Shown piece after piece: positions 34,942 through 48,808 of a stretch of 64,000 nt of DNA. A model generated the notes under the pieces. That model was not told the origin of the DNA. It saw nothing but the letters and a program-made list of their open reading frames with translations, and did no database searches. The stretch's first letter is position 1, and each line of letters starts with the position of its first letter. The DNA is taken from NCBI RefSeq assembly GCF_037201915.1, contig NZ_CP147505.1, positions 806,001-870,000 of the forward strand. Direction: 5' to 3'. The translations under genes and the position numbers were made by a program. Origin of the DNA: Haloplanus sp. CK5-1 (GTDB taxonomy: Archaea > Halobacteriota > Halobacteria > Halobacteriales > Haloferacaceae).

Positions 34942-35023
34942 ATAGTAGCGTTTGGAACTGTTTGCACACCTGATCGCCAGACTGCATGCGATCAGGTGTG
35001 CGATGACTTACAAAGGCTACTAT
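34942..35023 (+). mobile_element. 82-bp miniature inverted-repeat element, copy 1
   Basis: Ends are ATAGTAGC and GCTACTAT. Inside, GCACACCTGATCG and CGATCAGGTGTGC form a second 13-bp inverted repeat around a short loop, so the whole element can fold into a long hairpin. It is the exact reverse complement of copy 2 at 37943-38024 over all 82 bp. It ends 10 bp after the stop of the disrupted DUF7344-like gene. It is too short to code and the mobilising transposase is not identified. Confidence 0.85.
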
Positions 35024-35531
35024 CGCTCCGCACTACATTTCCTCTACGAGTTCACGGGGAGGTTCCACGTCCGTCGGCGTCGAGGCGCTTCCGACAAGCG
35101 TCCGCCGGTCCCGGAGGGTGTGCACACAACCGACGAGCGTGAACCCCGCGGCGACGAACAGGGCGTATCCGAACCCACCCACGTACGAGAACGGCGCGAA
35201 CCCGAGCGCGGCGACCGCTACCAACGCCGAGAACACGGCTCCCAACGCGAGATAGAACTGGCTCCAAGGGATGTCGTCCTGCGGCACCACGTCGAGGTAG
35301 ACGTCGAACGTCCGGAGATCCCCCGTCATGGTGATCGTCCCACGGTCCTTGTCGTAGACAACGGCCCCCACCCGGTCCATCATCGGCAGGTGCGTCTGAT
35401 GGAGACCGGTGTACACCCGCTTGCGCTGTTTCGGCGTCACGGCCCGGCGGTCGATGCGGTTCTCCCACGCCGCGATCTGCTCGGAGAGGTCGCGGATCGT
35501 CACCGAGTCGTCCACCTGCCGCAGGTAGTGA

Positions 35532-36653
35532 TAGTGATTAAGGAAGTTATTTACTGTTAGACGTAGTGGGGTCGATAATGGGGCAGTTCGACGAGATCAC
35601 GCTTGAGGAACTCTACGACCTCAAAGAGCAGATAGACGAGGGTAAGCCGCGAGAACGTGTTCTCGCGGCGATCGGGCGCAAGCAGGGCGATCAAATCGAT
35701 ACCTTGGCTGACCGCCATGGAGTCGTCGAAAAAACGATCCGCAACTGGCTCGATCGGTTCGAGGAAACACCGATCGAGCAAGCTCCCTACGATGCTCCTC
35801 GACCAGGAGGCCCAGCAAAGATCGAGGGAGAAGAGCGGGAACAGCTGTTCGAACAGTTGCAACAGCCGCCAACCGAACTCGGCTACGACCAGCAAGCGTG
35901 GTCAGCGAAGCTCCTTCTTCACCACGTCAAACAGGAGTACGACGTCGAATACCACGAGAACTACGCCTACGAGTTATTGAGAGAGGCCGGGCTGTCCTTG
36001 CGGACAGCACGGCCTCAACACCACGAGGCCGACCCCGAGGAGAAGGCCGAGTTCCAAGACACAGTCGAAAAAAACGGCCCGAACTGAGCGAGAAAACCGT
36101 CGTTGTCGTCGATCAATTCACCAAGCACGTTGGAACCGTCCAGCGGCGTGGCTGGTACCCAATCGGTTCAAATCCGACGATAGAGACTGCAACGTCCTGG
36201 AAGTCGGTGACAGTGCTTGGCGCTGTCACCGATAACGGTGATAGCCTCTTCTGCTGGACGGAAGAGAACTTGACCAGGTTCCACGGAATTCGGTTGTTAG
36301 AAGCGTTGAAAGACGAGTTCGGTGAGGAATTAGTGGTGTTTCTGGACCGAGCGGGCTACTTCTATGCGAGGGATCTCTGGGAGCACGTCAGCGGTGAGCG
36401 CGAGACCGAAACTGTCGGAGACAGTTCGGTCTCGTGCGTGCGCGGGGACAATCTCGAAGTGTGGTATTTCCCGTCAAAGCTACCCGAATTGAACGCCGTC
36501 GAAGGGTGCTGGGATCAGCTCCAGGAGTGGTTCAAATACCGCCTTATCCCAGATCTCTCGACGCTGAAAGACTCCATTACACGAGGATTGAGCGCAATCA
36601 CCGAACCAAATATCTGGCCGTATCTTACCGGTAAAGATCCGACTTAATCACTA
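35532..36653 (+). mobile_element. IS630-family insertion sequence, 1122 bp
   Basis: The element is bounded by an 11-bp perfect inverted repeat TAGTGATTAAG (35532-35542) and CTTAATCACTA (36643-36653), flanked on both sides by TGA (35529-35531 and 36654-36656). It holds one transposase read from two overlapping frames. IS630 members normally duplicate TA, and TA is also found at both ends. However, only removal of a 3-bp TGA duplication restores the reading frame of the host gene. The perfect repeats and intact frames suggest recent insertion. Confidence 0.88.
35578..36647 (+). CDS. IS630-family transposase made by -1 frameshifting
   Basis: Frame A (35578-36087) encodes the N-terminal helix-turn-helix region (IGRKQGDQIDTLADRHGVVEKTIRNWLDRF) and the linker domain. 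The catalytic part is in the -1 frame ending at 36647: TVVVVDQFTKHVG (first Asp), LVVFLDRAGYF (second Asp), and LPELNAVEGCWDQLQEWFKY (final Glu), a DDE arrangement. The frames overlap at the heptamer A AAA AAC (36069-36075), which is in phase with frame A and 10 nt before its stop at 36085. The full product would be about 355 residues. Confidence 0.88.
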
Positions 36654-36965: not shown

Positions 36966-37781
36966 ATGATTCGGCACTACACTACGGACGTACTGACAGG
37001 CCTTCGTCGACCGGAGTACACCGGCGAGAACCGGTGTCTGCCCTGCACCGTGATCAACCTCGTCCTCGCGGCGGCACTGGCCGCTGCGGCGGCGCTCGTA
37101 TCTCTCCCACTGGGGGTCGCTGTCGTAGTCGGGTCGCTCGCGAGCATCTACCTCCGAGGGTATCTGGTGCCCGGGACGCCCGAACTCACGAAGCGGTACC
37201 TCCCCGAACGCGTCCTCGGGTGGTTCGGGAAGGCCGACACCCTAGGTCCCGCCGCGGATATCGATTTCGACGCGGTGGCCTTCCTAAACCGCGCGGCAGT
37301 CGTCGTCGACACCGGTGACGACGTCGCCCTCGCACCGACCTTCGAGCGCCGTCTCGACGCCGCCGCGCTCGCCCTCGACACCGAGGCGGCCATGACCGCC
37401 GCCTCGGCCGACCTGCTCGACGTCGACCCGGAGCGGGTGTCCTTTGCCAGCGACAGCGGGTCGTGGCGGGTCTTGGTCGACGGATCGATACTCGGGCGGT
37501 GGGAGTCGAAGGTGGCGTTCGTCGCCGACCTCGCCGCCCACCGCACGCTCTCGGGGTGGACCGACGACTGGGCGTCGGTCCCGGGGGCTGCCCGCGGCCG
37601 GACGCTCTTGGCGGTCCGCGCCTGCCTCGACACGTGTCCAACGTGTGCGGGCGATATCCGGCTCGGGACCGAAACGGTACGCTCGTGTTGTCGCGAGTAC
37701 GAAGTCGTCGCAGCCACCTGTTCCGGCTGCGACGCCCGGCTCTTCGAGACCGACGCACGGGGCCTCGCCGCCGTGGAGTGA
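36966..37781 (+). CDS. Two-helix membrane protein with C-terminal zinc-binding region
   Basis: A 271-residue protein. Residues 1-25 hold CLPCTVIN just before two close membrane helices (LVLAAALAAAAALVSLPLGVAVVVGSLASIYL). A soluble domain follows, and the last 60 residues carry CPTCAG, SCC and CSGC, which could bind one or two zinc ions. I know similar haloarchaeal proteins but no function. It lies between the two inverted 82-bp elements. Confidence 0.75.
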   Translation: MIRHYTTDVLTGLRRPEYTGENRCLPCTVINLVLAAALAAAAALVSLPLGVAVVVGSLASIYLRGYLVPGTPELTKRYLPERVLGWFGKADTLGPAADIDFDAVAFLNRAAVVVDTGDDVALAPTFERRLDAAALALDTEAAMTAASADLLDVDPERVSFASDSGSWRVLVDGSILGRWESKVAFVADLAAHRTLSGWTDDWASVPGAARGRTLLAVRACLDTCPTCAGDIRLGTETVRSCCREYEVVAATCSGCDARLFETDARGLAAVE

Positions 37782-37942
37782 CACCGTCGGCGACACCTAC
37801 GTGGGGGATGTCCGATACCACAGGGCGTCGAACCCCGTCACGCGAGCGTCGCCGACGACACGATTTCGAGCGAGTCACACACACGACCCGGGGACGGCGG
37901 ACTCGGGAGTCAGTGAATGGCTAACTCGACAGACACAGGAGT

Positions 37943-38024
37943 ATAGTAGCCTTTGTAAGTCATCGCACACCTGATCGCATGCAGTCTGGCGATCAGGTGT
38001 GCAAACAGTTCCAAACGCTACTAT
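37943..38024 (-). mobile_element. 82-bp miniature inverted-repeat element, copy 2
   Basis: Identical to copy 1 at every position, in opposite orientation. The two copies flank 2919 bp holding the IS-broken regulator and the membrane protein at 36966. Copy 2 ends 23 bp after the stop of the intact DUF7344-like gene, just as copy 1 follows the stop of the broken one. Confidence 0.88.
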
Positions 38025-38046
38025 ATTTTCGACGGGACGCCCGTCT

Positions 38047-38589
38047 TCAGAAGAGCTTGGCACGGAGCCGCGCGAGCCGTCCCCGCGCCCCGATCCGTGA
38101 GGCCATCAGTTGGTACGCCGTCGAGACGGCAAAGCAGACGAGGAACCAGGTCGCCGGAACGAGTGGGTCGACGGCGGCGAAGCCGGGTACCGAGGCCAGC
38201 GACGCGACGGTCGCGAACAGCCCCACGACGCCCAAGACGCGGTAGTACTCGCCCCATGTTACGCCCACGCGGGTGGTGACATCCATATACCGCCCGAGGT
38301 GTCTCGCTTCCGGACGGGCGGACACCACTTTCCGATCGGGATCGTAGACGACGAGCCCGAGGCCGTCCATCTTCGGGAGGTGGGTCTGGTGGAGCGCGTT
38401 GTAGACGCTCTCACGGAGCGCCCGCGGTGCAGGGCGCTGTCCGGACTCGGCCGCGGCGATCCGCTCGGACAGTTCACGCAGCGAAAGCGCCTCCGATTGG
38501 GTCCACAGTTCGGCGAGCGCCTCCCGCCGGCGCGCGTTACTCAGGACGTGATACACCTCCACCTCCGACAGGACGGCCCGCTGGAACAT
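38047..38589 (-). CDS. DUF7344-like winged-helix/membrane regulator, intact
   Basis: A 180-residue paralogue of the gene split by the IS. The N-terminal domain VYHVLSNARRREALAELW..LSLRELSERIAAAES..VYNALHQTHLPKMDGLGLVVYDPDRKVV has a winged-helix character. Two membrane helices follow (VVGLFATVASLASVPGFAAVDPL, VPATWFLVCFAVSTAYQLM). The ATG at 38589 has a GGAGG ribosome site. It is divergent from the surface cluster across a 358-bp region carrying the CGGTACG array, so it is a good candidate regulator of that cluster. Confidence 0.78.
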   Translation of the reverse strand: MFQRAVLSEVEVYHVLSNARRREALAELWTQSEALSLRELSERIAAAESGQRPAPRALRESVYNALHQTHLPKMDGLGLVVYDPDRKVVSARPEARHLGRYMDVTTRVGVTWGEYYRVLGVVGLFATVASLASVPGFAAVDPLVPATWFLVCFAVSTAYQLMASRIGARGRLARLRAKLF

Positions 38590-38691
38590 CACCTCCTCCG
38601 ACGGGTTCTTGGGGCATAGCTATGGGCCGACTGCCGTTCCGTGCCACACGGAACGCTCACCGTACAGAACCCGAACCGAGCCGTTCTCGAT

Positions 38692-38784
38692 CGGTACGTC
38701 GACCGGACTAACCGGTACGCACTCCGGATCCTACCGGTACGCACGCACACCTGTTCCGGTACGAACACAGTACGCGGCGGTACG
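38692..38784 (+). promoter_or_regulatory. Array of five CGGTACG motifs at two-helical-turn spacing
   Basis: CGGTACG begins at 38692, 38713, 38735, 38757 and 38778: spacings 21, 22, 22 and 21 bp. All face the same side of the DNA helix. The core GTAC is palindromic; flanking bases favour CCGGTACGNAC. An isolated CCGTAC is at 38660. The array ends about 38 bp before the TATA box of the surface cluster and lies between it and the divergent DUF7344-like gene, so it may serve either promoter. Confidence 0.75.
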
Positions 38785-38821
38785 GACCCCGTATCCGACG
38801 GCCGAATCAGGCAACGAGACC

Positions 38822-38829: not shown

Positions 38830-38947
38830 AGCCGTTTTAGGGGCTCTAACGCCTGAATCAGCGCATAGGTAATACCCCCCCGGATGTGGGGTACTTTGTC
38901 CCGAGACGACCAGTGGCGGTTCCACGGTCCGACGGGAGGACAAACCA

Positions 38948-39964
38948 ATGACGCACGACAACGACCCCAAACTGTACAGCCTCTCACGCCGCAAGATGCT
39001 CGCCGGCCTCGGTGCCGTCGGCTTCGCTTCCGCGGGCGCCGGTCTCGGTACGAGCGCGTTGTTCAGCGACCAGGAGACGTTTGAGGACAACACGATCACG
39101 GCGGGCACCCTCGATATGACGGTCAGCGCGACGCAGGTCGCGAACAGCTCCGACGCGCTTGGGGAGATCTACTACGAAAACCTCGGCCTTCAGGCCACGA
39201 TCGGTGCATCGCCCGGTGACGGCGACGGCGTCCGGCTGCAGGCCGACGACGTCAAGCCCGGCGACTGGGTGATCTACTGCTTCGAGATCGACGTCGAGGA
39301 CAACCCCGGGTACGTGACGATCCACGCGGACAACCTCCTCGAGAGCGGCGGGGCCAACCCCGAACCGGAGCAGGAAGCGGAAGGCAACAGCAGCAACAGC
39401 GCCGACCTCGGCGAGGCGCTGCTCGTGACCCACTGGGGCACGTTCAACGGAACTGACCCGACCTATGACGGCAGCGGCAACGTCACGAACGCGGGGACGA
39501 TCGCCGGCAACTCGCGCCTCGACCTCGAGGATCTCGACAGCACGACCAACGTTGCCGGCGGCATCGCACAAGGGGCGTACGGCGTGCCCGCACTCGACGG
39601 GACGGCGACAGTCGGCTCGACCCCCGTCGAGTACACCACCCTGCGGGAGTTCGTCGAGACCTACGACACCGATCCCACGAGCGCGCCGTTCAACAACACC
39701 CAGGACCCGCCGAACAGCTCCGGCGTCCTCATCCGCAACGACACGGCCGGCGGCTCGCCAGCACCGGCTCTCCAAGTCGGCGGCTCGAACACCGGACTCG
39801 GCTCCGGCACGTTCACCTACTACATGCTGATCGAGCTCCCCTTCGACGTCGGTAACGAGGTCCAAGGCGACAGCGTCCAGTTCGACCTCGGCTGGAGCAC
39901 CGAACAGGTCCGCAACAACGGCGACCCACGGAGTGGCATCACGTTCAACAATTCGACCTCGTAG
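38948..39964 (+). CDS. TasA/camelysin-like surface protein with SipW-type signal
   Basis: A 338-residue secreted protein. The signal SLSRRKMLAGLGAVGFASAGAGLGTSALFSDQETFEDNTITAGTLDM has the SipW-type cleavage region ALFSD followed by the conserved first strand. The end QGDSVQFDLGWSTEQVRNN matches the last strand of the TasA family. Two cysteine-poor Asn/Ser-rich loops lie between. TasA-like proteins build extracellular fibres by passing the N-terminal strand to the next subunit. No VWA domain is present, so it is the best candidate for the main fibre subunit. First gene after the regulated promoter. Confidence 0.78.
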   Translation: MTHDNDPKLYSLSRRKMLAGLGAVGFASAGAGLGTSALFSDQETFEDNTITAGTLDMTVSATQVANSSDALGEIYYENLGLQATIGASPGDGDGVRLQADDVKPGDWVIYCFEIDVEDNPGYVTIHADNLLESGGANPEPEQEAEGNSSNSADLGEALLVTHWGTFNGTDPTYDGSGNVTNAGTIAGNSRLDLEDLDSTTNVAGGIAQGAYGVPALDGTATVGSTPVEYTTLREFVETYDTDPTSAPFNNTQDPPNSSGVLIRNDTAGGSPAPALQVGGSNTGLGSGTFTYYMLIELPFDVGNEVQGDSVQFDLGWSTEQVRNNGDPRSGITFNNSTS

Positions 39965-40027: not shown

Positions 40028-40038
40028 GCACGATCCCT

Positions 40039-40120
40039 ATAGTAGCCTTTGTAAGTCATCACACACCTGATCGCATGACTGCGTTCGATCAGGTGTGCGG
40101 ACAGTTACAAACGCTACTAT
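40039..40120 (-). mobile_element. 82-bp miniature inverted-repeat element, copy 3
   Basis: Same length and ends as copies 1 and 2. It differs from copy 2 mainly in the hairpin loop (about 40076-40086) and at a few single bases. It sits between the first and second surface genes, inside a spacer whose flanks otherwise resemble the spacers of the next genes, so it was probably inserted after the gene tandem formed. Confidence 0.83.
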
Positions 40121-40160
40121 AGCCCGGCACTCACGCGGTGCTCGCTCGACGGTCGTGAAA

Positions 40161-40200: not shown

Positions 40201-40247
40201 CTGGACTCGTCTCGGCGACGGTCCCACCCGAACGAGGGAGACAGACC

Positions 40248-42158
40248 ATGACAGAACACGAATTCGACCTCTCACGGCGGAAGGTGCTCGGCGCGATCGG
40301 AGCCATCGGTGCGGCGTCAGCCGGCGCCGGCTTCGGCACGAGCGCCCTATTCAGCGATCAGGAGACGTTCGAGGACAACCGACTCGTCGCCGGCGAACTC
40401 GACCTCACAATGGACTGGGAGGAGCACTACTCTTTCCCCCAGATATACGAGGCGTTCGACGATCCGGCGGCCGGCCTCGACGTCCGAACGGAAGAACCGA
40501 ACGTTCCGGACCTGTACCAGCGGTATCCTGCGGGCGCGACCGACGGAACCGACGGCGACGGTTCGATCTGGGTCAACAGGGAGGATGTCCCGACGTATAT
40601 GGACAACACCGCTATCGACTCGTTCCCGGATGCCGGGAACGACGGGACGGCGGAGTTCCCGGTCGAGGAGATGGCCGAAAACGGGACGCGCGCCTGTGAA
40701 CTGTTGGCCAACGTCGGCGGCGAGAGCGGCGGCCTCTCGAACTTCGGCGCAGAGACCGTCGGCCGAACCGACAACGAAGACACCCGTCTCGACGCCGGCG
40801 AGGGAGCGCCGCTCATCAATCTCCACGACGTCAAACCCGGGGACTTCGGCGAGGTTACGTTCAGTATTCACCTCTGCAGCGACCCGGGAAACCCCGGCTA
40901 CGTCTGGATGAACATGCCCGGCGGCCTCACCGATCACGAGAACGACGTGACCGAACCGGAGGCGGCCGCCCCCGGCGAAGACGATCTGCCGGGTGACGCG
41001 GAGACGAGCGGCGAGCTCGCGGAGAACATCGAGACCGCGCTGTGGTACGACACGGACTGCGATAACCTCCCGGACGATGGGGGACAGCCGATCGATCTCA
41101 TCGCGCTCGCCGACGTCTCCGGGTCGATAGACCCCCCCGAGATGGACGACATCGAGGACGGGGCGAACGCCTTCGTCGAGGAGCTTCCGACCGACGGAAC
41201 CGTCGAGGCGGGGTTCATCACCTTCGCCGGTCCGGGCGAAGGATCCGCTTCCGGCGTGACCGTCCAGCTGGACCTCGGGCCGATCGATCCGTTCTTCCAG
41301 AACGACGACCCGACCCAGCCGGGCGACATCGGGCAATTCCTCCCCGAGAGCGGGAACGGAAGCACGCCGATGCCGGCAGCCCTCGACGTCGCACGCCAGA
41401 TCCTCAACGCGGAAGCGCGCCCGAACGCCCGGAAAGTGATCCTGCTCGTCACCGACGGCGGCCCCGACTACCCGGACGTCACCTACGAGGCGACGACCGG
41501 GACGGACACGTACACGGTCCCCTCGCAGTATGTCGACGCCGGAACCAACGACGGGACGAGCTCGAATGAGGAGCAGGACCAGACCGCCGACGTCGCCGAC
41601 AGCATCGACGACGACGAGATTGCGATCTTCACCGTCGCGGTCGGCGGGACGGGGGTGAATTCGATCTTCGAGGGGCCACAGACGCTGGGCTCGTTCCTCG
41701 AGAACCGGATCGCGACCTCCCCGAACGAGGCCTTCGACGCGACCGTCGCCAACGGCAACGGCGGCAACCTCGAGGGGATCGCCCAGACGATCGGGAACCG
41801 GATCTCCACGCTGGCCAGCACCGGGAACGCGGAGAAGATCGTGTTCCGGGGCACCCTCGAGGAACTCGAAACCGCGTTCGGGACCACAGAGCATGGGATC
41901 CCGCTCGATGCCGACGGTGACCCGTCGTTCGACGAGTTCGCCGATGACGCAGAGACCGACCCGCGTCGGGACTGCTTCCTCGCCGGGGCGACGTACTGCT
42001 TCGGGTTCTCGTGGTGGCTCCCGCTGGACGTCGGCAACGAAGTCCAGTCGGATTCGGTCACCTTCGATCTGGGCTTCTACACCGAACAGTGCCGGAACAA
42101 CGACGGTGGCGGCGGGCAGCCAGTCACACCGACGGCTGGTGGCGACACGGGACAGTAA
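40248..42158 (+). CDS. TasA-like surface protein with inserted VWA domain (1)
   Basis: A 636-residue secreted protein. The signal DLSRRKVLGAIGAIGAASAG..GTSALFSDQETFEDNRLVAGELDL is SipW-type. A first beta domain with LINLHDVKPGDFGEVTFSIHLC follows. A VWA domain occupies about residues 282-500: IDLIALADVSGSIDPPEM gives the MIDAS DxSGS, STPMPAALDVA the threonine and VTDGGPDYPDV the last aspartate. The end CFGFSWWLPLDVGNEVQSDSVTFDLGFYTEQCRNN returns to the TasA last strand. Thus the VWA sits in a loop of the fibre-type domain and could act as adhesin or metal-dependent binder. Its start has a GGGAG ribosome site. Confidence 0.82.
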   Translation: MTEHEFDLSRRKVLGAIGAIGAASAGAGFGTSALFSDQETFEDNRLVAGELDLTMDWEEHYSFPQIYEAFDDPAAGLDVRTEEPNVPDLYQRYPAGATDGTDGDGSIWVNREDVPTYMDNTAIDSFPDAGNDGTAEFPVEEMAENGTRACELLANVGGESGGLSNFGAETVGRTDNEDTRLDAGEGAPLINLHDVKPGDFGEVTFSIHLCSDPGNPGYVWMNMPGGLTDHENDVTEPEAAAPGEDDLPGDAETSGELAENIETALWYDTDCDNLPDDGGQPIDLIALADVSGSIDPPEMDDIEDGANAFVEELPTDGTVEAGFITFAGPGEGSASGVTVQLDLGPIDPFFQNDDPTQPGDIGQFLPESGNGSTPMPAALDVARQILNAEARPNARKVILLVTDGGPDYPDVTYEATTGTDTYTVPSQYVDAGTNDGTSSNEEQDQTADVADSIDDDEIAIFTVAVGGTGVNSIFEGPQTLGSFLENRIATSPNEAFDATVANGNGGNLEGIAQTIGNRISTLASTGNAEKIVFRGTLEELETAFGTTEHGIPLDADGDPSFDEFADDAETDPRRDCFLAGATYCFGFSWWLPLDVGNEVQSDSVTFDLGFYTEQCRNNDGGGGQPVTPTAGGDTGQ

Positions 42159-42295: not shown

Positions 42296-43987
42296 ATGAA
42301 AGACTACGAATTCGACCTCTCCCGACGCAAGGTCCTCGGCGCGATCGGTGCTATCGGCGCGGCGTCAGCGGGCGCCGGCCTCGGCACGAGCGCGCTGTTC
42401 AGCGACCAGGAAACGTTCGAAGACAACCGACTCGTCGCGGGCGAACTCGATCTCAAGATGGACTGGGAGGAACACTACTCCTTCCCGCAGTACTACGGGT
42501 TCGACGATCCGACGGCCGGGCTGGATGTCACCCGATCCGAACCCACAGACACGACCGACTACGCCGCGCTCCCCGATCCGTCGAACCCGCTCGTCTGGGT
42601 CCACAACGACGACCTCAACGCGTATATGGACAACACTGCGATCGAGGCCTACCCGGACGTGGACGACGACGGGATTCAGGATCCCTTCAGAATGGACGGG
42701 GTCGGCGACTTCTGTACCGACGGCGCCGACCTTAACGGCGGGCTCGATCCCTTCGGCGACGGTGCCTTCCGAACCAACAACGTCGATACCTATACACCCG
42801 AGACGGAGACGATCGAACCGCTCGTCAACCTCTCGGACGTCAAACCGGGCGATTTCGGGGAGCTCACCCTCAGTCTCCACCTCTGTGACAACCCGGGATA
42901 CATCTGGATGAACGGCGGTCTCGTCGAGGCCCGCGAGAGCGGCATCACCGAAGCCGAGAGCGACTCCAGCGACGCTGGCCCCGCAGATGAGGTCGTGACC
43001 GATCTCACCGAGAGCGACGGCGTCGAACTCCTCGACGAAATCCAGACCGTCGCCTGGTACGACGGCGACTGCGACAACGTCCTCGACGGCAGCCGGGAAG
43101 CCACCGGAGGCGAATTCGCAGACGTCGTCATCGTGATGGACGTCTCCGGCTCGATGGACGGCGAACTCGCCGACGCGCAGGCCGGCGCGAACGAACTCGT
43201 CGCGGCCCTCGGGCCGAACGACCAGGTCGGACTCGTGTCCTTCTCCAGTTCCTCACCGAGCACGTCGTCCTCATCGCTCGATGTCGGACTGACGAGCAAC
43301 CACAACGACGTTTCGACGGCCATCAACGGCCTCTCCGCCGGTGGCGGGACGAATATCGAAGCCGCGATCGAACGAGCACATGACGAACTCACAGTCGCCG
43401 ATATCTTCACCGAGTACACCGAGAGCGGGAGCGCCCGCCCCGGCGCACGGCAGATTATGGTCTTCCTCGGCGACGGCTCGGAGAACGCCGGAACGGACGT
43501 GACTGATTCGGGTAACGAGGACCCCGTCCAAGAGGCCTCCAACGCGAAGGCGGACGGCATCGAGATCTTCACCATCGCATACGGTACGAGCGCGCCGAGC
43601 CTCTCGGATCTGGCGAGCGACCCGAACAATCCGCCCGAGAGCCCAGAGTCCCAGTACGCATTCGGGGCGACGACGGAGGACGTCGAGACCGTCTTCCGGA
43701 ACATCGGCGGGACCGTCAGCAGCGGCGGCGAGGAGGTCTTCCACCAAGGATCGCTCCGCGACCTCCTGCTCAGGCTCGAAGACGGTGACGGGATCCCACT
43801 CGACGGCGACATCGAGACCGAGGGCCGGTCCTGTTTCGCCGGCCTTCAGACTCACTGTGTCGGACTCGCGTGGTGGATCCCCACCGAGGTCGAGAACCAG
43901 ATCCAGTCGGACTCGGTCAGCTTCGACGTCGGGTTCTACGCCGAGCAGTGCCGGAACAACGAGCAGACCCCGGAGGCGGAAGTCTGA
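42296..43987 (+). CDS. TasA-like surface protein with inserted VWA domain (2)
   Basis: A 563-residue paralogue of the previous gene. Residues 1-66 are nearly identical (DLSRRKVLGAIGAIGAASAG, FSDQETFEDNRLVAGELDLK). The beta domain has LVNLSDVKPGDFGELTLSLHLC. The VWA domain spans about residues 275-455: VVIVMDVSGSMDGELADAQ, GGGTNIEAAIERA and MVFLGDGSENAG form a complete MIDAS. The end CVGLAWWIPTEVENQIQSDSVSFDVGFYAEQCRNN closes the TasA fold. The pair clearly arose by tandem duplication that included the leader. Confidence 0.83.
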   Translation: MKDYEFDLSRRKVLGAIGAIGAASAGAGLGTSALFSDQETFEDNRLVAGELDLKMDWEEHYSFPQYYGFDDPTAGLDVTRSEPTDTTDYAALPDPSNPLVWVHNDDLNAYMDNTAIEAYPDVDDDGIQDPFRMDGVGDFCTDGADLNGGLDPFGDGAFRTNNVDTYTPETETIEPLVNLSDVKPGDFGELTLSLHLCDNPGYIWMNGGLVEARESGITEAESDSSDAGPADEVVTDLTESDGVELLDEIQTVAWYDGDCDNVLDGSREATGGEFADVVIVMDVSGSMDGELADAQAGANELVAALGPNDQVGLVSFSSSSPSTSSSSLDVGLTSNHNDVSTAINGLSAGGGTNIEAAIERAHDELTVADIFTEYTESGSARPGARQIMVFLGDGSENAGTDVTDSGNEDPVQEASNAKADGIEIFTIAYGTSAPSLSDLASDPNNPPESPESQYAFGATTEDVETVFRNIGGTVSSGGEEVFHQGSLRDLLLRLEDGDGIPLDGDIETEGRSCFAGLQTHCVGLAWWIPTEVENQIQSDSVSFDVGFYAEQCRNNEQTPEAEV

Positions 43988-45623: not shown

Positions 45624-46912
45624 TCCTGAGCCGACGCCGCGTGCTGGCAGCGCTGGCCGCGGCTGGTGGCGCAGGCGCGCTCGCGGGGACCGGAACCGCC
45701 GCGGTGTTTCGAGACAGCGAGCGCTCTCGCGCGTCGATCACGGCCGGTACCGTCGACCTAGTCGTCGAGTACGAACTCCTGACCGGCCCCGGTACGGGCG
45801 GCCCCGGCAGCAGCGGCACCGTCGACGGCCCCCGCATCACGCTCCCGGTTGATTCACTCGCCCCCAATGACGACGCCGGGAGTATGCTCCTCACGTTCGC
45901 GCTCCCACAACGGGGTGACGCCATCAACAACCCCGCTGCGCTGTGGCTCGCGACCGACTGCCCCGTGCCCGAGGCGACAGGGCTGGGGGAGGCGATCCGG
46001 GTAACGCTGTCGTACGCCGACTGCGAGTCGGGGACGCCGCTTTCCCGGATCGTCAGCGGTTCGCTCCGGGAGGTCGCCGACGACCTCCGTGACGGTCGCC
46101 GTGTCGACAGCGACCCGACGACCACCGAGCCCGACTGCTTGGTGGAGGAGGTCTGCCTGCTCGTCGAGTACGAACTCGCCGGCTACGTGGGGACCGAAAC
46201 GGTCGACTTTCCGTTGTGGTTCGCGGCGGTCCAGTGCCGGCACGCCACCCCGACGAACCCTTTCGCCGGCATCGACGCCGACCCGTGTCCCCCCGGCGAC
46301 CCCTGCACGTGTTGCCGGACGCTCGGCAAACTGGAACTCGACTCCGGCACCCAGCCCGGGATCGACGATAGCTACGTCGAGCCCGGAACCTACGTCTTCA
46401 CCGATGGCGATACCGACTACGGCCTGGAGATCTACGACACCGCGGACAAAGACGCCGGCACCGAGACCGTCGGCGTCGCCTTCCGGCTCGTGCACCTCGT
46501 CGGCGACGCCGTCCCGAGCCTCTGTACGGTGGCCATCAAGAACGGCCCCGGGTTCGAGCAGTACGACCGCGACGACGACACGCTCGCCGACACCGCCGGA
46601 CTTCCCGGCAGCGACGCCGACGGGCTCGTCTACGCGCCGGACGGGAGCGCGATCAGCCACGTCACGGTCTGCGTCTGCACCACCGAGCCGGAGGCGGACT
46701 GTCCCGGGTGTACGGATCCCTCGTTCACGAACTCCGGCTCCGGCGGCCCGAGCGGGGACGACGATGCTGACAGAGACGAGCGCGAACCGAGTGGGGACGC
46801 CGACGGATCCACCGGTAGACTGGGTGGCCGCGGTGGCACCGAGCCCGACGGTTCCGACGACCCCGCCGGACGCAGCGGTCCGTCGGCGGCTCCGCCCGGA
46901 GGTGACCGATGA
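45620..46912 (+). CDS. Cys-rich TasA-like surface protein (430 residues)
   Basis: The signal MILSRRRVLAALAAAGGAGALAGTGTAAVFRDSERSRASITAGTVDLVVEYEL has the SipW pattern (AVFRDSE.. then the first strand). The TasA-like domain ends VGTETVDFPLWFAAVQCRHA near residue 215. A second domain follows with CPPGDPCTCC at its start, GTYVFTDGDTDYGLEIYD and CVCTTEPEADCPGC, and then a disordered Asp/Gly/Ser tail. The extra Cys-rich domain may cap or anchor a fibre. It overlaps both neighbours by 4 nt. Confidence 0.72.
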   Translation: MILSRRRVLAALAAAGGAGALAGTGTAAVFRDSERSRASITAGTVDLVVEYELLTGPGTGGPGSSGTVDGPRITLPVDSLAPNDDAGSMLLTFALPQRGDAINNPAALWLATDCPVPEATGLGEAIRVTLSYADCESGTPLSRIVSGSLREVADDLRDGRRVDSDPTTTEPDCLVEEVCLLVEYELAGYVGTETVDFPLWFAAVQCRHATPTNPFAGIDADPCPPGDPCTCCRTLGKLELDSGTQPGIDDSYVEPGTYVFTDGDTDYGLEIYDTADKDAGTETVGVAFRLVHLVGDAVPSLCTVAIKNGPGFEQYDRDDDTLADTAGLPGSDADGLVYAPDGSAISHVTVCVCTTEPEADCPGCTDPSFTNSGSGGPSGDDDADRDEREPSGDADGSTGRLGGRGGTEPDGSDDPAGRSGPSAAPPGGDR

Positions 46913-47838
46913 CCCGGCTCCCGACGCCGTCACTCCCGAGCGCCAGACAGTTGCTCGCGATGATCGTCCTGCTCGCGGCAGTCTCGCCGTTCGTGGTCTT
47001 CGCCGTCCCGCAAGTGATCGGGGCCGACGAGGGGTTCGTCGTCCTCTCAGGGAGTATGGAACCGGCGCTGTCGACCGGTGATGTCGTGATTGTTGATGCC
47101 TCCGCGCCCGTGACGGTTGGCGACATTATCACCTACCGGACTGGCGCCGACGGCGTCCCGACGACCCACCGCGTCATCGGCGTGCAAGACGGCGAATACG
47201 AGACGAAGGGTGACGCGAACGGGAACGCCGACTCGGGCTTGGTCGGCTCCGAGGCGATCATCGGACGGGTCGTCCTCGCGATCCCCGTCATCGGCCACGT
47301 GATCCTGTGGGCGAACACGCCCGTGGGATACGTCACGCTGGTCGTCGGCCCGCTGGTGTTGCTCGGCGCGAACGAACTCTTCGCGTGGGCTCGGCGGGAG
47401 CCGACCGGAAGCGAACGCGAGGATCCAGCGTCCGAACAGGGATCGTCACCGGACCCGGACACGGCGGACGGCGACGCGACCGCAGACGACTGGGGGGTCC
47501 CGGAGGCTACGGTATCGGAGGTCAACGGCGGGCTGCAACCCACCCGGTCTGCCACGGTCGCCGCGGTCGATTTAAAGCTCACGCTCTTGGCGATGGGAGC
47601 GTTGTGCACGTACGCAGGGTGGAACGTGTACCGCGAGTTCTCCCTGACCGCAGCGCCGACCCCGATTTCGGTCGGGGCGCTGACGGCGGGCTTCCTCGGC
47701 CTCCTGTTCGCAGGGTCGGTGACGGTGACCGCATGGCGGGCGGCCCGCGCATCGCGCTCCGAACCGTCCGCTACGAGCACCGACTCGGTCCCCGCTCTGA
47801 CGGACGGCAGCGGGGGGGCGGAGGCGGACGATGAGTGA
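46909..47838 (+). CDS. SipW-like type I signal peptidase
   Basis: A 309-residue membrane peptidase of the archaeal/ER Ser-His type. Ser49 lies in VVLSGSMEPALSTGDVVIV, His87 in TTHRVIGV and Asp102 in TKGDANGNAD. The first membrane helix is at residues 14-36 and others at about 118-155, with a disordered acidic linker and two more helices at the C-terminus (about 220-270). In Bacillus SipW processes TasA and TapA and is encoded beside them. Its place inside this cluster of SipW-type substrates makes the same role likely here. Confidence 0.87.
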   Translation: MTRLPTPSLPSARQLLAMIVLLAAVSPFVVFAVPQVIGADEGFVVLSGSMEPALSTGDVVIVDASAPVTVGDIITYRTGADGVPTTHRVIGVQDGEYETKGDANGNADSGLVGSEAIIGRVVLAIPVIGHVILWANTPVGYVTLVVGPLVLLGANELFAWARREPTGSEREDPASEQGSSPDPDTADGDATADDWGVPEATVSEVNGGLQPTRSATVAAVDLKLTLLAMGALCTYAGWNVYREFSLTAAPTPISVGALTAGFLGLLFAGSVTVTAWRAARASRSEPSATSTDSVPALTDGSGGAEADDE

Positions 47839-48808
47839 AATGCTCGCCTTCATCTGCGCGCTGTTTGTCGTGTTCGCCTCGACAACCGCCGGCGTGTCGG
47901 TCGCGCTGCTGTCGGATGAGGAGTCGGTTTCGATCGGCTTCAGCGCCGATGTTCCGAACCCGGACGCAGTCGCGCTCGACGGCGATCCGGAGGCTACGTT
48001 GGACGCTGCAAGCGATGGACTAACGGCCAGCGTCGACTCGAATGATACCTCTCGGAACGCGACGGGAGAACCCCCAAGATCCGACGGGAACAGTTCGTCC
48101 AGTTTCAGCGGGACTCAGGACGGGAACGCCACGACTGCAGTCGACGAGAGCGACGGGAACGTCACCGACGACAACTCGGGGTCGCCTGTGTCCACCCCAC
48201 AAGACGATGGATCGGAGTCGACCGACGACGCGTCCGACGAGGACGTGGATGACGAACGGACCGATTCGGTCGAATCCGATGACAACGGCGACGCGTCCAC
48301 CGATGGCAGGGATTCATCGGCCGACGGAGAGGGATCATCTGAAAAAGCTGACTCCACGTCTGAGTCCGACGGCGGGTCCGACGATAGTGGCTCGTCTGAG
48401 TCCGACGGCGGGTCCGACGATAGTGGCTCGTCTGAGTCCGACGGCGGGTCCGACGATAGTGGCTCGTCTGAGTCCGACGGCGGGTCCGACGATAGTGGCT
48501 CGTCAGGGTCCACCGACAGTGGCTCGTCTGAGTCCGACGGTGGGTCCGACGATAGTGGCTCGTCTGAGTCCGACGGCGGGTCCGACGATAGTGGCTCGTC
48601 TGAGTCCGACGGTGGGTCCGATTCTAACGGATCTGGCTCCGACGGTGGCTCCGACGGTGGATCCGATGGTGGCTCCGACGGTGGCTCCGATAGTGGCTCC
48701 GACGGTGGATCCGATGGTGGATCCGATGGTGGCTCCGACGGTGGCTCCGATTCTAACGGGTCTGGATCCACGAACGACAGCTCGTCCGACGACTCCGGTA
48801 CCACCTGA
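47831..48808 (+). CDS. Acidic Ser-Asp-Gly repeat protein with SipW-type N-terminus
   Basis: A 325-residue protein. The N-terminus MLAFICALFVVFASTTAGVSVALLSDEESVSIGFSAD is a membrane segment ending in the ALLSD-type site seen in the other cluster proteins. The rest is disordered: a Thr/Ser/Asp-rich part, then twelve-residue repeats SESDGGSDDSGS and shorter SDGG repeats. There is no folded domain and no lysine-rich part. It could be a stalk, a glycosylated spacer or a fibre accessory like TapA. It overlaps the peptidase gene by 8 nt. Confidence 0.75.
   Translation: MSEMLAFICALFVVFASTTAGVSVALLSDEESVSIGFSADVPNPDAVALDGDPEATLDAASDGLTASVDSNDTSRNATGEPPRSDGNSSSSFSGTQDGNATTAVDESDGNVTDDNSGSPVSTPQDDGSESTDDASDEDVDDERTDSVESDDNGDASTDGRDSSADGEGSSEKADSTSESDGGSDDSGSSESDGGSDDSGSSESDGGSDDSGSSESDGGSDDSGSSGSTDSGSSESDGGSDDSGSSESDGGSDDSGSSESDGGSDSNGSGSDGGSDGGSDGGSDGGSDSGSDGGSDGGSDGGSDGGSDSNGSGSTNDSSSDDSGTT
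48359..48755 (+). repeat. In-frame 36-bp and 12-15-bp tandem repeats
   Basis: Four 36-bp units (48359-48502), a 24-bp variant, two more 36-bp units (48527-48598) and one variant unit lead into many 12-15-bp units coding SDGG. All are multiples of three, so gain or loss of units keeps the frame and changes only the length of the stalk. The units are almost identical at DNA level, which points to recent slippage. Confidence 0.9.

Follow-up and report, generated by a model that had tools for sequence, protein, structure and literature searches.

Between a DUF7344 gene and the divergently oriented first gene of a SipW-type surface cluster lies a phased array of inverted-repeat units, which keeps a fixed register to the promoter core of the surface genes, is unique in its genome, is conserved in relatives and is associated with one DUF7344 clade. 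We consider it fairly probable that the array serves as an operator to which dimers of the adjoining, divergently encoded and membrane-tethered DUF7344 regulator bind cooperatively; this regulator would most likely activate the SipW/TasA-like cluster and regulate its own gene. The window analyzed here (64,000 nucleotides) spans bases 806001-870000 of a haloarchaeal genome that comprises 3.24 Mb in a single contig, and the features discussed are collected in Table 1.

Table 1. Genes, promoter elements and putative operator units around the array (positions in the window).
Feature	Position	Strand	Basis or remark
DUF7344 protein, proposed array binder	38050..38592	-	PF24035, E 3.4e-26; AlphaFold2 model; hydropathy; fold comparison
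DUF7344-gene TATA-like element CATAGCTATG	38615..38624	-	~25-35 bp upstream of start; seen in ortholog regions
Upstream palindrome	38649..38667	.	CGGAACG-ctcac-CGTACAG; DUF7344 side; in register, 215 bp (20.0 turns) from SipW-gene core
Operator unit 5 (distal), putative	38692..38710	+	CGGTACG-tcgac-CGGACTA; 172 bp (16 turns) upstream of promoter core
Operator unit 4, putative	38713..38731	+	CGGTACG-cactc-CGGATCC; 151 bp (14 turns) upstream of core
Operator unit 3, putative	38735..38753	+	CGGTACG-cacgc-ACACCTG; right half a poor match; 129 bp (12 turns) upstream of core
Operator unit 2, putative	38757..38775	+	CGGTACG-aacac-AGTACGC; 107 bp (10 turns) upstream of core
Operator unit 1 (proximal), putative	38778..38796	+	CGGTACG-gaccc-CGTATCC; 86 bp (8 turns) upstream of core
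SipW-gene promoter core CATAGGTAATACCC	38864..38877	+	84 bp upstream of ATG; conserved in orthologs
SipW-type gene, first of surface cluster	38948..39964	+	SipW-dependent-type signal peptide TIGR04088; camelysin-like PF12389
Exported VWA-domain protein with SipW-type signal peptide	40242..42158	+	Profile matches
Second exported VWA-domain protein with SipW-type signal peptide	42296..43987	+	Profile matches
Signal peptidase I, archaeal/SipW-like	46909..47838	+	TIGR02228, E 2.6e-24; NF046067, E 5e-21, below cut-off

The Array and Its Repeat Unit

The initial annotation described five CGGTACG sites, and re-reading of the sequence places all five on the + strand at the starts of units 5 to 1, with start-to-start spacings of 21, 22, 22 and 21 bp. 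The extent of the array had been understated, as a weaker upstream palindrome in the same register and weaker right half-sites, each 12 bp after the start of the left half-site, are also present. Randomly occurring CGGTACG at similar density across the genome, which the annotation had named as evidence against its own claim, was examined by window count, genome scan and simulation and does not account for the array. The window contains 23 copies against 22.6 expected, i.e., without overall enrichment. Among 300 order-4 Markov windows the longest run at 21/22-bp spacing was one copy in 296 and two in 4, and at least three phased copies occurred in none (0/300). The genome as a whole holds one further pair at 21/22-bp spacing, within a coding gene, and the five-copy array is unique in the 3.24 Mb. 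An origin by random density was therefore rejected: the number of copies is average, the phased run exceptional.

A column profile of 59 aligned units shows CGGTAYG at positions 0-6 and an inverted second half, CGKAC, at +12 to +16, with little information between them. The unit is a 19-bp imperfect inverted repeat, CGGTAYG-N5-CGKACnn, that recurs every 21.5 bp and has a strong left and a weak right half; unit 3 is poor because of its right half (ACACCTG). This inverted-repeat form fits the dimeric regulator that had been suggested. Since each 21.5-bp unit holds one 19-bp inverted repeat, successive dimers would lie two turns apart on one face of the DNA, and the one-face phasing put forward earlier agrees with both the two-turn repeat and the register to the core kept in relatives.

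Conservation and Register to the Promoter Core

The same array is found beside homologous clusters in related genomes, a check that the initial annotation had named. The closest relatives of the DUF7344 protein (57-86% identity) are encoded in Halobellus, Haloglomus, Halonotius, Halorientalis and other genomes of the same family, and their gene is divergent to a SipW-type gene wherever the contig extends far enough. In the main clade, nine sequences (from Halobellus, Haloglomus, Halonotius and further relatives) carry 5-7 CGGTAYG-like units, 21-22 bp apart, between this divergent pair, and autocorrelation of the nine ortholog regions gives peaks at 21, 22, 43, 64/65, 87 and 107 bp, with z up to 22.

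Measured to the core CAT[AG]GGTAA, the units start at 86-87, 107-108, 128-130, 150-152, 171-173, 193-195 and 214-216 bp, distances that equal 8, 10, 12 ... 20 turns of 10.75 bp. For 40 exact sites in 9 sequences, the mean resultant length at 10.75 bp reaches 0.94, and 10.79 bp is the period that fits best; a Rayleigh test restricted to one site per sequence gives p ~4e-4. As the sequences are related, and the register and periodicity statistics count them partly as independent, this p is a guide only. The register is maintained despite divergence of the DNA in between: the 42-bp stretch that separates array and core keeps its length at a mean ungapped identity of 48% (26-88%), and the proximal unit stays at 86-87 bp. 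Halorientalis relatives have fewer units, at other whole-turn positions, and in Halobellus rufus the sites at 87/97/108 bp from the core form single-turn steps. Several orthologs carry CGGCACG-N5-CGTACCG or a similar sequence at the position of the upstream palindrome near the DUF7344 gene, which in those relatives having one lies ~18, 20, 22 or 24 turns from the core, so that length changes on the DUF7344 side come in whole units. The palindrome in the window is possibly an autoregulatory operator for the DUF7344 gene.

A strict search for triple arrays in 170 genomes of the family and 392 of the order (overlapping sets) placed the arrays whose spacers have clearly diverged at this locus, in 7 genomes. 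The remaining matches resembled simple tandem repeats, their spacers being alike or identical. One match in another genome, consisting of perfect 22-bp CGGTACG repeats, was discarded as an ordinary tandem repeat on account of its other gene context and identical spacers. Among the 40 relatives searched, exact arrays were not found in the same genus, where the regulators belong to a sister clade with other motifs.

The motif follows the regulator clade. The count of CGGTAYG in the intergenic region tracks the identity of the DUF7344 protein to that of the window: at 57% or more there are 1-6 exact sites and below this mostly 0, an association with p 5e-11 when related sequences are counted separately. 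The sister clade of same-genus relatives is without CGGTAYG; its two CCRTAG-N6-CTAYGG-like units lie 44 and 65 bp from the core, 21 bp apart and thus with the same phasing as the CGGTAYG array. A third DUF7344 clade has GTTAAY-type repeats that are less clear, and in DUF7344/SipW pairs farther removed the autocorrelation signals, at 10, 12 and 32 bp, were only weak. On the sequences compared, arrays are thus established only for the window clade and this sister clade A. In the protein, the segment before the long fourth helix varies by clade (PAPRAL, PPPARV, PPPSNI) next to nearly invariant adjoining residues, which would fit a change in specificity. The covariation of motif and regulator clade need not reflect binding, as common ancestry of the entire intergenic region could produce it too.

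The DUF7344 Protein

The divergent neighbor had been called a DUF7344-like winged-helix/membrane gene, a description borne out by its family match and predicted structure. The protein matches PF24035 with 91.8 bits (gathering cut-off 27.8) over profile positions 1-76 of 76. An AlphaFold2 model from a 64-sequence alignment (mean pLDDT 88.6, pTM 0.71) has helices at residues 10-17, 20-31, 38-50 and 57-77, a two-stranded wing at 81-92 and a linking helix at 94-103, followed by two long helices that start at 113 and 144 and are both marked by hydropathy as membrane-spanning candidates. The predicted layout is a winged helix at approximately residues 10-92 with transmembrane helices at ~113-132 and ~144-165.

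Foldseek alone gave no significant match to the model. VIA-align of the Foldseek top 1000 ranked haloarchaeal RosR first, among many MarR/ArsR-type winged helices (6qfd, Z 10.4; 6qua and 6ez1, Z 10.1, rmsd 2.4-2.5 Å over 81-83 residues). With Z near 10 for this fold, the comparison supports a winged helix for the modeled domain but does not assign it to any one family, and the DUF7344 profile, run against the sequences of solved structures (PDB), matched none of them up to E 1. DUF7344 genes are common across the haloarchaea and numerous within single genomes; the genome studied here has eight DUF7344-type matches. No mention of DUF7344 was found in the open-access literature searched.

A second DUF7344 gene in the window (35033-35515, -) lacks the N-terminal part of the winged helix and is abutted by transposase ORFs (HTH_33, DDE_3; 35566-36647, +), and therefore looks truncated by insertion. 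Two MITE-like elements of 84 nt with terminal inverted repeats (TATAGTAGC...GCTACTATA), at 37942-38025 and 40038-40121, flank the block formed by the first DUF7344 gene, the array and the first SipW gene. Genome-wide, their left end is present 28 times, and one more end copy is located at 35003-35024, beside the second DUF7344 gene.

The Surface Cluster and the Divergent Promoters

As in SipW-dependent export clusters, TIGR04088 scores above its cut-off in four proteins, the camelysin-like protein, the two VWA-domain proteins and a fourth SipW-type protein, and the signal peptidase belongs to TIGR02228. Against NF046067, the Bacillus SipW equivalog, this peptidase scores 75 bits, with a cut-off of 190. 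By these profile matches the cluster resembles a SipW/TasA-type export system, and its products may form filaments.

Right after the signal peptidase gene, an ORF (47831-48808, +) contains 36-bp tandem repeats at 48357-48621 that encode a Ser/Asp/Gly-rich low-complexity protein. The product of 36966-37781 (+) matches no family and has a CxPCT conserved near its N-terminus; its relatives also adjoin sister-clade DUF7344 genes, and it is possibly a component of the cluster.

The SipW-gene core CATAGGTAATACCC is the sole exact copy in its genome. On the other side, CATAGCTATG would by its position act as the TATA element of the DUF7344 gene, whose transcript is probably leaderless. The elements of the two divergent genes have a common TATA-like core, CATAGSTAW. 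In the sister clade its reverse complement, ATTACCTATG, is located at an equivalent distance from the gene start, suggesting that the core element may be near-palindromic.

Proposed Mechanism and Alternatives

We propose that DUF7344 dimers, tethered to the membrane, would bind the units cooperatively. The bound dimers would line one face of the helix, at a rotational position fixed relative to the core promoter of the SipW-type surface operon, and would activate the SipW/TasA-like cluster, while the in-register palindrome on the DUF7344 side would mediate autoregulation. Several weak half-sites combined with anchoring in the membrane could result in a steep, threshold-like response. We infer DUF7344 as the binder, dimers as the bound form, activation over repression, and the signal. 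From what is known of archaeal promoters, activation seems likelier than repression since all units are located upstream of both core promoters. Direct contact with the core is not obvious, as the proximal unit ends 67 bp upstream of it; typical archaeal activators sit nearer.

Alternatively, DUF7344 might be a repressor whose dimers spread or loop and so keep the two divergent promoters silent up to their release by a membrane signal. The array is flanked by the two promoters and the upstream palindrome, in array register, would suit looping or a spread complex; however, neither core promoter is overlapped by any unit, although binding over the TATA or start-site region is the usual mode of archaeal repressors, and we regard repression as unlikely. 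The array could also be a real operator that serves another trans-acting regulator encoded elsewhere, with DUF7344 a merely linked component of the cluster. Any of the eight DUF7344-type matches in the genome might bind, and the tie between DUF7344 and the array is drawn from sequence comparison, but the uniqueness of the array in the genome, its recurrence between this divergent pair in the examined relatives and the change of motif with the DUF7344 clade make another regulator improbable. That the array is a tandemly duplicated 21-22-bp repeat, phased by the duplication mechanism and without regulatory function, would agree with the variation of the distal unit number in whole units and with the perfect 21-22-bp tandem repeats with CGGTACG elsewhere in haloarchaeal genomes, but is very hard to reconcile with half-sites kept while spacers diverged, with a proximal unit at 86-87 bp from the core even in diverged sequences, and with single- or odd-turn steps (Halobellus rufus, 87/97/108; Halorientalis) that duplication of units would not produce.

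Comparison With Known Systems

In Sulfolobus acidocaldarius, ArnR and ArnR1 are membrane-bound one-component regulators of surface structures, and ArnR recognizes two TCGAC-N5-GTCGA boxes that are both required for binding (PMC6396743). ArnR and the proposed DUF7344 system have in common a membrane-bound HTH regulator, a surface-filament target promoter and inverted-repeat boxes with a 5-bp spacer, and the CGGTAYG-N5-CGKAC units upstream of the core follow an ArnR-like operator layout in letters different from TCGAC-N5-GTCGA. In contrast to the two boxes described there for ArnR, 5-7 phased units are present here, and instead of the putative HAMP and the sensing domain of ArnR, the DUF7344 protein has two hydrophobic helices only. 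The likeness to ArnR-type regulation of surface genes would be functional only.

EarA of Methanococcus maripaludis is a winged-helix activator with four TACATA sites at the fla operon (PMC6396743, PMC13286277). As in the proposal made here, a wHTH activator of an archaeon is paired with several short sites ahead of the promoter for a surface structure; the EarA motif is different, and neither a membrane part nor a 21-bp phased inverted-repeat array is reported in the available portions of these sources. RosR of Halobacterium salinarum (PDB 6qfd, 6qua, 6ez1), the best structural match, is a haloarchaeal wHTH protein with solved DNA complexes, but shares 10-12% identity over the aligned part, and its chains of 110-116 residues lack the two hydrophobic helices. 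Transmembrane transcription regulators (PMC10269533) consist of a DNA-binding domain fused to membrane segments and act from the membrane; with a DNA-binding fold and transmembrane segments the DUF7344 protein would by prediction belong to this class, which is functional and not one homologous family.

On the side of the target genes, the cluster shares with the Bacillus SipW/TasA matrix fibers a dedicated SipW-like signal peptidase, SipW-type signal peptides and a camelysin-like exported protein. It differs in being archaeal, in its VWA-domain proteins, in a signal peptidase below the SipW equivalog cut-off and in the type of regulator. Nothing on phased haloarchaeal arrays was found in the literature searched. 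Phased arrays and membrane-bound regulators are already known; their combination with a conserved 5-7-unit lattice is new.

Implications

A broader reading, tentative and in our view rather doubtful, is that the DUF7344 proteins of haloarchaea form a large family of regulators tethered to the membrane, in which every clade has its own operator array on a promoter-fixed 10.75-bp lattice. The version with 5-7 units would then act, organized from the membrane, as a switch of unusual cooperativity, and possibly a bistable one, for SipW/TasA-like surface structures. For one DUF7344 clade, the array supplies a predicted target on the DNA together with the build of its unit and its register to the promoter, which makes binding, cooperativity and membrane tethering directly testable. 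If true, the proposed mechanism would show the control of a SipW/TasA-type surface cluster by an archaeal membrane protein, and would offer a clean natural case in which to study how helical phasing and cooperativity act at a promoter in archaea.
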